Of a stretch of 64,000 nt of DNA, positions 11,165 to 14,481 are shown piece by piece; within the stretch, counting starts at the first letter, position 1; each line of letters opens with the position of its first letter. This stretch comes from Salibacter halophilus. Lineage in GTDB: Bacteria; Bacteroidota; Bacteroidia; Flavobacteriales_G; Salibacteraceae. Location: assembly GCF_008806325.1 (NCBI RefSeq), contig NZ_WACR01000006.1:124001-188000 (forward strand). The letters run 5' to 3'. The translations under genes and the position numbers were made by a program. Under the pieces are notes generated by a model. That model was not told the origin of the DNA. It saw only the letters and a program-made list of their open reading frames with translations, and did not search any database.

Positions 11165-11221
11165 GGGGTTTATTTTGATAGTTTGCGTATTTTAGAAACA
11201 GAAACCAACACCCCTTGTTCA

Positions 11222-12598
11222 ATGAGTGTGATAGAATCTGTCGTTAAAGATCAAAAAAATTATTTCTACAGCGGTGTTACCCGATCGGCAAAATTCCGGA
11301 AACAACAATTGAGAACGCTAAAGCGCGCTATTCAGAACCATGAGCAGCAACTTCACGAGGCCATGAAAGCTGATTTTCAAAAGCCAGAGTTTGAGAGTTT
11401 CGTCTCTGAAACAGGCTATCTGCTGCGCGATATCGATCACACACTCAACCATCTCGATGACTGGATGAAGCCCGAGAAAAAATCATCTTCTCTTTTGAGC
11501 GCTCCATCAAAAAGCTATGTCATGCGAGAACCTTATGGTGTTTCGTTGATCATCGCTCCGTGGAATTACCCGGTTCAGTTGGGCCTGGCTCCGGCTATTG
11601 GTGCTATTGCTGCCGGAAACACGATTGTTTTGAAACCGTCTGAAATGACACCCAACACTTCACGGGCGCTGGAAAAAATGATCGATGAGTTTTTCGACAG
11701 GCAGTTTTTCACCGTTGTGCAGGGAGCAGTTGACGAAACGAACGAACTTCTCGCTCAACCGATTGACAAAATCTTTTTCACCGGTAGTCCGGCAGTTGGG
11801 AAAATCATCATGAAGGCTGCGGCTGAGAACCTGACACCGCTGACACTCGAGCTCGGAGGTAAATCTCCCGCGATAGTTGATGAAACGGCTTCAATCAAAA
11901 CTGCTGCAAAACGCATAGCCAGCGGTAAATTTTTCAATGCCGGGCAAACCTGCGTGGCACCGGATTATATCCTTGTGCACGATTCGGTTTCCCGAAAACT
12001 GATTGAGGAACTTGAAAAAGCGATTCACTCATTTTTCGGTCAGAGCCCAAAGGACAGCCCTGATCTAGCCCGCATCGTCAACGAAAAACACTTTGACAGA
12101 CTCAAAGCGGGTCTGGATGGTGTAAAGGTTTTGATCGGTGGTGGATCTGACCGGGATGAAAGATACATCGAGCCAACGGTTGTCACAGATGTGCCGGAAG
12201 ATCACATGTTGTGGAACGATGAAATTTTTGGTCCGATCCTTCCCATTTTCACTTATTCATCGATTAAAGAAGTAGTAGAAATTATTCGCAGCAAACCCAA
12301 GCCACTGGCATATTACCATTTCACGCGAGACAGTAAATTGAAAAAAGAATTGCTGGAAAAGCTTTCATTTGGTGGAGGCACGATCAACGATACGCTGGAA
12401 CACCTTATTCAGCCCGATTTGCCATTTGGCGGAGTTGGGTTCAGCGGAATGGGAAATTACCACGGAGAAGACAGCTTTTTGGCCTTTTCTCACCGGAAAA
12501 GCATTTTGGAAAAGTCTGACAAGGTAGATGTTCCATTAAAGTATCCGCCTTACAAAGGAAAACTGAAGTGGTTGAAGCGATTGTTTAAATGGATATAA
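11222..12598 (+). CDS. Aldehyde dehydrogenase (class 3-like)
   Basis: NAD(P)-dependent oxidation of an aldehyde to its acid. Counting from ATG 11222 (458 residues), the general base Glu210 lies in LELGGKSPA and the nucleophile Cys244 in FNAGQTCVAPD, 34 residues apart as in the family. The N-terminal IIAPWNYPVQLGLAP block and lack of a long linker match class 3-type fatty-aldehyde enzymes, and the C-terminus is basic with Trp residues, perhaps membrane-associating. A TTG at 11183 opens the frame earlier, but ATG 11222 fits family length. Substrate unknown. The stop abuts a terminator that reads the other way. Confidence 0.93.
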   Translation: MSVIESVVKDQKNYFYSGVTRSAKFRKQQLRTLKRAIQNHEQQLHEAMKADFQKPEFESFVSETGYLLRDIDHTLNHLDDWMKPEKKSSSLLSAPSKSYVMREPYGVSLIIAPWNYPVQLGLAPAIGAIAAGNTIVLKPSEMTPNTSRALEKMIDEFFDRQFFTVVQGAVDETNELLAQPIDKIFFTGSPAVGKIIMKAAAENLTPLTLELGGKSPAIVDETASIKTAAKRIASGKFFNAGQTCVAPDYILVHDSVSRKLIEELEKAIHSFFGQSPKDSPDLARIVNEKHFDRLKAGLDGVKVLIGGGSDRDERYIEPTVVTDVPEDHMLWNDEIFGPILPIFTYSSIKEVVEIIRSKPKPLAYYHFTRDSKLKKELLEKLSFGGGTINDTLEHLIQPDLPFGGVGFSGMGNYHGEDSFLAFSHRKSILEKSDKVDVPLKYPPYKGKLKWLKRLFKWI

Positions 12599-12733: not shown

Positions 12734-12805
12734 TTAGAACGCCAATAAATTAGCGTTCAACATATTTAAATTACCTGATTTAGACGATTTCTTGACTGAT
12801 GACAT
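12734..12805 (-). CDS. Possible 23-residue small protein inside the structured RNA
   Basis: ATG at 12805, stop TAA at 12736-12734. The predicted peptide begins MSSVKKSSKSGNLNM and ends LLAF: Ser/Lys-rich, then Asn/Leu-rich, with no membrane segment. A full AAGGAGG Shine-Dalgarno sequence sits at 12819-12813, 7 bases before the ATG, which stands out because most genes in this window have no such site. The last codons and the stop lie within or next to a hairpin, and codons 10-12 form one arm of a 9-bp helix. It could be a leader peptide, a dual-function RNA product, or a chance ORF. Confidence 0.4.
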   Translation of the reverse strand: MSSVKKSSKSGNLNMLNANLLAF

Positions 12806-12935
12806 TACACCGCCTCCTTTCTTATTAGTGCGACTTCACTCAACAATTTTCGTCAAGTACCTTATGACTACTCTCTTGATGAGCCGCTGGATTCTCCAGC
12901 TCGAATTGTTGGTCTAAAGTAACACCTTATTACAG

Positions 12936-13143: not shown

Positions 13144-14481
13144 ATGCCCAGGAAAAAGAAACAGCGCAAGATTTACGTTTTTGACACTTCCGTAATTCTC
13201 TACGATCACAACGCCATCAAAAACTTTGAAGATAATGATGTAGCTATTCCCATTACGGTTTTAGAAGAGCTGGACAACTTCAAAAAGGGAAGTGACACCC
13301 GTAATTATGAAGCTCGTGAGTTTATCAGGATTATCGATAAATTATCTGAGAAGAACTCTTTGCAAAAGTGGAACCCCATCAATGGGAAGTCAAAAGGGAA
13401 ATTTAAAGTTGTGATGAATGGGCAGTCGCCAACGAACAAAACCGACTCGATTTTTGGCACGAACAAGAACGATCACAAAATCCTGAATGCGGCTCTGACC
13501 ATGGCACAGGAAGAGCCTGATGCAAGGGTAACGCTAGTCACAAAAGACATCAACCTCAGGCTAAAAGCAAAGTCTCTCGATCTCAATGCTGAGGATTACG
13601 AAACGGGTAAGGTCAAGGATTTGCAAAATCTTTACACCGGAAAAACGCAGGTTGATGATGTTGAACAGGAACTGATTGACGCTCTCTTTCAGGAAGGAAA
13701 GGTCCCGGCTGAGGATTTTGAAAAAATTACATTCCACCCGAATCACTACTACATTTTAAAAGGGAAGAGAAGTTCGGTTTTGGCTTATTACAATCCGGTT
13801 CTCAAGCAAATGGAGCGAGTTGAAAAACGCTCTTGCTATGGTGTGAGTCCGAGAAATGCTGAGCAGACTTTCTCTATTCACGCAATGCTGAATGAAAATG
13901 TAAAACTGGTAACCTTACAGGGTGTAGCCGGAACCGGAAAAACGTTGTTATCACTCGCTTCATCTATTGAGCAGCGAAAAGAATTCAAGCAGATTTACCT
14001 CGCCAGGCCAATCGTACCGTTGAGCAATAAAGACATCGGTTATTTACCGGGCGATGTAAAATCGAAGATCAATCCGTACATGGAGCCGCTCTGGGATAAC
14101 CTCAAGTTCATCAAAAATCAATGGCCAGAGACGGATCGTCATTACAAGCGCATCGAGGACATGGTTAACAAAGAAAAGATTTTGGTGACTCCGTTGGCTT
14201 ACATCAGAGGGCGCAGCTTGTCAAATGTGATTTTTATCGTTGATGAGGCTCAGAACCTTACTCCGCACGAGGTGAAGTCGATTATCACACGAGCCGGAGA
14301 AAACACGAAAATGATCTTTTCGGGGGATATTTACCAAATTGATACGCCATACCTCGATGAGCAATCAAATGGCTTGTCATACCTCATCGACAAGCTAAAA
14401 GGGCACGAGTTGTTTTCACACATCACACTGGAAAAAGGAGAACGGTCAGATCTCGCCAATTTGGCAAACGAGATGCTCTAA
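13144..14481 (+). CDS. PhoH-family ATPase with N-terminal PIN domain
   Basis: 445-residue protein of the PhoH2/YlaK type. The N-terminal PIN ribonuclease-like domain (about 5-150) begins KIYVFDTSVILYDH with the first acidic residue, followed by ITVLEELDNFK and TLVTKDINLRLKA with further acidic residues. The C-terminal PhoH ATPase domain has Walker A GVAGTGKT at about 260-267 and Walker B FIVDEAQN near 363. Related PIN-PhoH proteins act as RNA helicase/ribonucleases. The start ATG at 13144 gives normal length. The 3' end overlaps the convergent membrane-protein gene by 4 bases. Confidence 0.93.
   Translation: MPRKKKQRKIYVFDTSVILYDHNAIKNFEDNDVAIPITVLEELDNFKKGSDTRNYEAREFIRIIDKLSEKNSLQKWNPINGKSKGKFKVVMNGQSPTNKTDSIFGTNKNDHKILNAALTMAQEEPDARVTLVTKDINLRLKAKSLDLNAEDYETGKVKDLQNLYTGKTQVDDVEQELIDALFQEGKVPAEDFEKITFHPNHYYILKGKRSSVLAYYNPVLKQMERVEKRSCYGVSPRNAEQTFSIHAMLNENVKLVTLQGVAGTGKTLLSLASSIEQRKEFKQIYLARPIVPLSNKDIGYLPGDVKSKINPYMEPLWDNLKFIKNQWPETDRHYKRIEDMVNKEKILVTPLAYIRGRSLSNVIFIVDEAQNLTPHEVKSIITRAGENTKMIFSGDIYQIDTPYLDEQSNGLSYLIDKLKGHELFSHITLEKGERSDLANLANEML

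Follow-up and report, generated by a model that had tools for sequence, protein, structure and literature searches.

An unusually strong Shine-Dalgarno sequence suggests that a mini-gene in a structured RNA of Flavobacterium relatives is read mainly by ribosomes without bS21

The minus strand of the window, the whole stretch of 64,000 nucleotides analysed here, carries a structured RNA with a 23-codon mini-ORF behind an unusually strong Shine-Dalgarno (SD) sequence, which suggests a mini-gene that may be read mainly by ribosomes without bS21 in relatives of Flavobacterium. On balance we lean towards a mini-ORF that would be translated within the folded RNA, with a preference for ribosomes whose anti-SD is free, and their passage would open a helix termed P. 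At the level of sequence, this reading draws on a conserved SD, ORF and reading frame, a covarying helix P and terminator, a promoter-like box, and a stand-alone context. A set of 35 genomes from the same taxonomic family (designated by G numbers, with the window's own genome being G000) was found to contain ten homologous loci, distributed over 9 of them and representing 7 genera. The common plan of these loci runs from the promoter-like box through 5′ hairpins, a 9-base SD, the ATG and an ORF of 19-25 codons to helix P, a long-range, covarying helix with its 5′ arm within the ORF, and finally to the terminator. Most loci also have a stop-codon hairpin and a pseudoknot, with G033 and G006 deviating.

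The extended SD of the window, AGAAAGGAGG, is located at 12822-12813 on the minus strand, with a 7-base gap to the ATG at 12805-12803. The mini-ORF (12805-12734) has 23 sense codons including the ATG, ends with TAA at 12736-12734, and encodes the peptide MSSVKKSSKSGNLNMLNANLLAF. The initial annotation had described AAGGAGG 7 bases 5′ of an ATG with 23 sense codons on this strand, and this is what we found. The 3′ end of the 16S rRNA from the same genome carries GGAACACCTCCTTTCT, to which the extended SD is complementary with -17.2 kcal/mol. When 58 non-overlapping ORFs in the window, called mechanically with the first ATG as start, possibly wrongly for some, were scored for pairing with the 16S tail, none reached -10 kcal/mol (median -3.1, best -9.6), in agreement with the earlier remark that strong SDs are scarce among the genes of this region. 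That remark had counted rarity in favor of the site; what it lacked was the link to bS21-poor ribosomes, which makes a strong SD meaningful in this lineage. An SD followed by an ATG is in itself no proof, since the 3.1 Mb genome has 13 AAAGGAGG-N3-10-ATG sites compared to 23 for the reversed control pattern, which is within chance. Another site of this pattern (L040) was antisense within a pnp-like gene, as judged by eye. It is conservation that exceeds chance, with SD, ATG, frame, and helix P kept at 10 loci in 9 genomes.

The predicted transcript stands alone, is about 310 nt long, and runs on the minus strand from about 12909 to about 12598. It is preceded by a promoter-like element (12944-12914, minus strand) consisting of TTTG (12944-12941), a 19-base spacer, and TACTTTAG (12921-12914), which is of the TTTG/TAnnTTTG type of Bacteroidota, where the partner TTTG is located at -33. 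The box consensus itself occupies positions -12 to -5 (excerpts of PMC9723704). Under a loose rule applied without a control (TA plus at least 2 of the 4 letters of TTTG), a TAnnTTTG-like box was present 104-121 bases before the ATG at all ten loci, five of which had an exact partner TTTG. Scanning for E. coli-type promoters, a consensus unsuited to Bacteroidota, gave no match on the minus strand near the start. At the other end, the intrinsic terminator AGCTCCTGC/GCAGGGGCT with its T run (12635-12597, minus strand) has a helix that is kept in the ten-sequence model, where all lettered cells pair in the 10 sequences, the inner three pairs being absent in one, and 8 of 11 pairs are changed on both sides. 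This terminator was not listed by a simple terminator scan of the window.

Homologs were collected by several searches. BLAST over 60 genomes gave matches in 7, including the own genome: SD/ORF and terminator segments in G001 and G002 of the same genus, the SD/ORF segment in G009 (twice), the SD in G006, and only the upstream stretch and terminator tail in G037 and G011. PhoH was found in 28 of the family's 35 genomes, and a scan of the regions around it led to G013 and G020; covariance model R1, built from the two G009 copies, led to G033 and G015. When model R3, built from the ten, was run over the 35 family genomes, the 10 loci in 9 genomes scored 62.9-167.5 bits and the rest at most 27.3, and no copy with R3 scores near those of the ten was found in the other 26 genomes. 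Order-wide searches of 42 genomes flagged 10 with R1 and 11 with R2, 8 being real in each case, and both missed G006. A class-wide model search of 395 genomes flagged 4, of which 2 (own and G015) were real; with 6 candidates scored in each genome and G006 missed, it says little against the presence of the RNA in other taxonomic families. A pattern scan of contigs yielded at least 120 stretches, and among those listed L137, L142, L153, L175, and L188 belonged to the RNA family, corresponding to the G001, G013, G020, G002, and G009 loci; the remaining stretches were called chance by a collective filter on ORFs of at most 40 codons.

Several candidates were rejected. The model matches L060, L061, and L064-L068 were judged spurious, having little beyond a terminator, or no SD and ORF; L061 and L068, at unrelated loci, had terminator hairpins with a GCAG...AUGC-like tip that led to false model matches. 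L230-L237 were set aside on the criterion of GAAAGGAGG plus a short ORF alone. A phage origin was also rejected, as 18 stretches of viral contigs fitted the search pattern, 7 with a GAAAGGAGG-led ORF of at most 45 codons, and none of those 7 was family-like. Separately, contigs C32 and C5 of G009 (L014, L039, L053, L063) were seen to contain two near-identical segments with ALDH-like and TetR-like genes, named by inspection, and the RNA. Each copy has phoH nearby, at a longer distance from the RNA in C5, and the double copy is due to a segmental duplication or else to a mixture of strains in the MAG, which has 3% contamination.

The earlier placement of the ORF inside a structured RNA, overlapped by a helix arm and a hairpin, was supported by folding. 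The minus strand from 12950 to 12600 folds with -111.5 kcal/mol (z -7.2 vs 100 shuffles), and MFE z-scores were between -4.1 and -7.0 at all ten loci (60 shuffles each). Two hairpins read from the sequence precede the SD: hairpin A (GCTGG/CCAGC with GGAGAAUCC apex; 12900-12886, minus strand) and hairpin B (GTCA/TGAC with the 9-base loop UAAGGUACU; 12868-12852, minus strand). Around both, in the window copy only, is an outer helix AACAATT (12910-12904)/AATTGTT (12848-12842) on the same strand, which the computed fold contains as well. By eye, equivalents of hairpin A begin 90-97 bases before the ATG in 9 sequences, the second G009 copy (G009b) not being listed separately, and a UAAnnUnnU loop of hairpin B was recognized in the window, G001, G002, G009a/b, G013, and G020, and not seen in G033, G015, and G006.

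Helix P joins the ORF to the sequence after it. On the minus strand of the window, its 5′ arm ATCAGGTAA (12779-12771), inside the ORF, forms 9 of 9 pairs with the 3′ arm TTACCTGAT (12701-12693), after the ORF. In the 9 sequences listed, the 5′ arm begins 20-34 bases after the A of the ATG, and the letters differ while pairing is kept; besides the window pair, the differing arms are CAATCGAGAA/TTCTCGATTG, ATTATCAAGTA/TACTTGATAAT, ACAGGTCATT/AATGACCTGT, AGGCAACC/GGTTGCCT, TTTATCAAGT/ACTTGATAAA, and TTTAGGTTTAAT/ATTAAACCTAAA. An unconstrained search for the strongest helix without interruptions that joins the ORF to post-stop sequence gave one beginning at codons 7-11 in 9 of 10 loci, with single p values of 0.002-0.072 against shuffles. 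The best unconstrained helix of G020 was elsewhere (p 0.23), and a one-bulge helix of CAGG-U-CAAAU with AUUUGCCUG was identified by eye at the expected place.

Enclosed by helix P are the stop-codon hairpin and an H2-type hairpin, which, together with the pseudoknot, were chosen by eye without a control of their own. In the window, all on the minus strand, hairpin H1 (GAACGC/GCGTTC; 12758-12737) ends directly at the stop codon, and hairpin H2 (AAAGC/GCTTT; 12722-12706) has the loop CCTTGTAT (12718-12711), which forms 8 of 8 pairs with the 3′ strand of the pseudoknot, ATACAAGG (12650-12643), followed by GATTTCG. Pairing of the stop-codon hairpin was verified in 7 of the 9 sequences listed; a long hairpin was assigned by eye in G020 and none in G006. 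The CCUU/AAGG pseudoknot was found in 7 of the 9 listed (8 of 10 loci with the identical G009b), with a different candidate in G033 and none in G006. The window copy has an extra hairpin, ATTTGGGTTTAG/CTGAATTCAAAT (12680-12649, minus strand), which is an insertion compared to five other sequences.

In a model-fitted alignment of the ten sequences (A9), which leans towards structure and misplaces the window, G020, and G006 rows in helix P, 90.4% of cells were paired and 26 of 35 pairs were changed on both sides. None of 500 shuffles reached the observed values, and slid versions gave 31-41%. Alignment A7, with 9 rows, showed the same picture with more rows misplaced, and MAFFT alignments A1-A4, which misplace helix P, were not counted. 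Openness of the SD at the start was not clear-cut in the predicted nested folds: its unpaired probability was 0.26-0.64 vs 0.33-0.38 overall, being above the overall value, not strongly, at 8 of 10 loci, equal in G020, and below in G033.

Conservation of the ORF among relatives had been proposed as a check, with loss or frameshift as the contrary outcome. GAAAGGAGG was located 4-8 bases before the ATG, and an ORF of 19-25 codons followed in frame, at all ten loci; this conservation is partly ascertainment, since the homologs, none of which has a lost or frameshifted ORF, were found partly via the SD/ORF segment. The peptides, besides that of the window, are MNSVKKSKQSRTKNMLNPNFRGI, MNSVKKSKQSRSMNMLNPKLIGI, MSSVKKSLSSNYMSNVKGAFAA (twice), MHSSKKSEKQTGHLVTASILLSA, MQSKKKSRIQTTGQIIGLNVNSLTN, MTSTQKNLLGNPMFNVIRSFGGW, MSYPLRSLSSNAAVEPQIVLDI, and MTSDKRSAHLGLISKFTEN. 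Frame 0 was open for 19-25 codons in all, and frames 1 and 2 for 0-33 codons without a pattern (9 sequences). Codons 2-7 (MxSxK(K/R)S) were conserved frame-specifically, with a score of 2.13 in frame 0 compared to 0.85 and 1.03 in the other frames, and to a mean of 0.50 (sd 0.56) when columns were permuted (p 0.0004; n=9, with G009b left out as a near-copy). Codon 3 was Ser in 8 of 9 sequences with a varying third position (TCA/TCG/TCT), and the N-termini were Ser/Lys-rich by inspection. No conserved sequence was found in the C-terminal half of the peptide among the ten loci, and the 7 mini-ORF peptides tried had no Pfam match. The initial annotation had suggested that structure might control translation, or that the peptide might regulate the RNA; the in-frame ORF, the covarying helix arm, and the hairpin at the stop codon lend this partial support. 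The peptide is conserved at the N-terminus only, and structure might control translation, translation might control structure, or the peptide might act.

These data also bear on whether the RNA is an ordinary small-protein mRNA, with the peptide of 19-25 aa as its product and a structure that only protects or tunes the message. We regard this as possible without favoring it. The frame-specific N-terminus and the third-position changes at codon 3 are what such a gene would show, and its own promoter-like box and terminator fit as well. However, the C-terminal half has no conserved sequence and the peptides tried have no Pfam match, helix P and the stop-codon hairpin hold their position while codons change, and the pseudoknotted 3′ half would be superfluous for a plain message.

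The preferred reading, that of a mini-ORF translated by ribosomes with a free anti-SD, gains its meaning from what is known of bS21. Anti-SD sequestration and bS21 dependence have been demonstrated by others in F. johnsoniae. According to excerpts of PMC9976891, the 16S tail with the anti-SD is hidden by bS21, bS18, and bS6 in Bacteroidia, and loss of bS21 makes ribosomes more active on mRNA with a strong SD. The same excerpts give SD pairing of rpsU as -14 to -21 across Bacteroidia and one as the most likely count of strong-SD genes per genome in Flavobacteriales, usually rpsU, the mRNA of which is autoregulated by bS21-lacking ribosomes. Since the anti-SD of normal ribosomes is buried in a pocket formed in part by bS21, the mini-ORF should be read mainly by bS21-less 30S subunits. 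At all ten loci, SD pairing with the 16S tail was -16.1 to -24.0 kcal/mol (rpsU of the same genome, -20.6), as calculated by ViennaRNA duplexfold, not by free_scan as in PMC9976891, and with a tail that was read in G000 (own) and G003 and assumed for the other genomes. All ten values are under the limit of about -13 kcal/mol that marks strong-SD targets of the rpsU type, as applied to pairing of the extended 16S tail close to the start. The mini-ORF, of 19-25 aa, does not code for bS21, and rpsU is elsewhere in the genome.

We found rpsU in 27 of the 35 family genomes. An AAGGAGG no more than 25 bases from its start was present in 4 of 7 RNA carriers vs 2 of 20 non-carriers (Fisher p 0.024, ignoring relatedness). 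It was absent in 21 of the 27 (L191-L218), so rpsU autoregulation of the published type may be absent from much of the family. In G002, G006, and G015, the RNA has its SD and rpsU is without AAGGAGG, and with 3 of 7 carriers in this state the RNA has no simple tie to rpsU autoregulation. As a separate observation, the 16S 3′ end is CCTCCTTTTT in G003, where the RNA was not found and rpsU has no SD, vs CCTCCTTTCT in the window's genome (L219, L224 vs L220); judging from these two genomes only, loss of SD use may accompany changes of the tail. In G001 and G002 (L055, L054), with the tail assumed to be as in G000, complementarity to it (GAAAGGAGG-A-TGTTCC) reaches the base before the ATG, with -24.0 kcal/mol, and this extended pairing looks more like a tail trap than a normal SD.

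Such a trap would be expected if the RNA were a decoy or sponge, with its SD binding the free 16S tail to hold or titrate bS21-poor 30S subunits and translation being incidental. Complementarity up to the base before the ATG is odd for efficient initiation, and keeping the SD in the three genomes with SD-less rpsU would fit a decoy too. We nevertheless consider it improbable, because the ATG, the 19-25 codon frame, the frame-specific N-terminus, and the stop at a fixed hairpin are conserved though a decoy needs none of them.

Genomic context bears on a third explanation. In the window, the RNA is flanked by two plus-strand genes named by inspection, a phoH-like one at 13144-14481 and one for aldehyde dehydrogenase at 11183-12598. 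The next annotatable downstream gene was convergent at 9 of 10 loci, with differing neighbors; for G001 and G002, mechanical ORFs of less than 93 aa that overlap with the RNA or the region around it were disregarded. The exception was G006, where an IleRS-like ORF, named by inspection, is downstream and co-directional. That arrangement, and the attenuator-like position of an ORF beside a terminator, could indicate a cis-acting leader or attenuator of a downstream gene, which is very unlikely given the convergent genes at 9 loci, the differing neighbors, and a terminator helix kept in all. That the ORF arose by chance in an unrelated structured RNA is scarcely credible: the 13 SD-ATG sites of the genome, below the 23 of the control, allow for it, but ORF, SD, and frame are kept at all ten loci of 7 genera, with frame-specific conservation at p 0.0004.

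Comparison with known RNAs gave no relative. Rfam 15 (4227 families), in which the OLE family is included, had no match above the gathering cut-off in the window and the 9 homolog loci; 7 sub-threshold matches (E 0.19-9.5) were far below the cut-offs. The RNA resembles tmRNA (RF00023), which likewise has a short ORF in a pseudoknotted RNA with the stop codon at a hairpin, and differs from it in having its own SD and ATG. tmRNA or a relative of it was rejected, since ARAGORN and Rfam gave no match in the window and a separate tmRNA is located at G000:C1:150695-151095; 32 of the 35 family genomes had a match above the cut-off of the tmRNA model, and model R2 did not match two tmRNA loci tried. 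Dual-function sRNAs with a small ORF, such as SgrS and RNAIII, are similar as stand-alone, regulatory-looking RNAs; unlike theirs, the mini-ORF here belongs to a covarying fold that is conserved, and the RNA is not known to have a target pairing region. With rpsU mRNA, the RNA shares exceptional SD strength, an equal pairing range, and a lineage with very few such genes, whereas here the SD serves an ORF of 19-25 codons in a folded stand-alone RNA, the fold overlapping the ORF.

A loose parallel is seen in OLE RNA of Bacillota, of which the P6 duplex resembles SD/anti-SD pairing and binds bS21 (excerpts of PMC12054373), as compared to the CCUU/AAGG core of the pseudoknot. In that study, bS21 binding survived the pairing-preserving mimic changes M1-M3 and some particular G-C pairs were important, and a look-alike CCUU/AAGG core is therefore weak evidence. 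OLE RNA has about 600 nt and comes from another phylum, while the mini-ORF RNA has about half that length and no Rfam match; OLE is a parallel and not a relative. The RNA was undescribed in the open-access literature searched, with preprints, many subscription papers, and the sequences of the 85 newly described RNAs of F. psychrophilum (PMC9723704) outside its scope.

We infer a course of events in which the RNA would be transcribed, translated in dependence on bS21, and refolded, and in which the output may lie in the stability of the RNA, in something targeted by the 3′ module, or in the peptide. 30S subunits with a free 16S tail, in which bS21 is absent or lost, would read the mini-ORF as they do with rpsU. 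Judging from the size of a ribosome footprint, the initiating ribosome would find room downstream of the 5′ hairpins and upstream of helix P. As it moves on to the stop codon, it would have to melt P and H1, which would alter how the pseudoknotted 3′ half is folded, so that the 3′ module could report translation. The RNA would thereby act as a translation-operated switch reporting the pool of ribosomes with exposed anti-SD. A more far-reaching version, which we offer as doubtful, is a dedicated sensor of ribosome composition: bS21-poor 30S subunits would be captured via the SD, translate through P, and refold the 3′ module, the CCUU/AAGG pseudoknot might bind bS21 or swap with the SD, and the RNA would signal or buffer bS21 status beyond rpsU autoregulation.

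If the proposed reading is true, these bacteria would have a second strong-SD client besides rpsU, even where rpsU is without an SD, and bacterial 'specialized ribosomes' would become testable beyond one autoregulatory loop. The RNA would also represent a new structured family, in which selection acts on the fold and the reading frame together.
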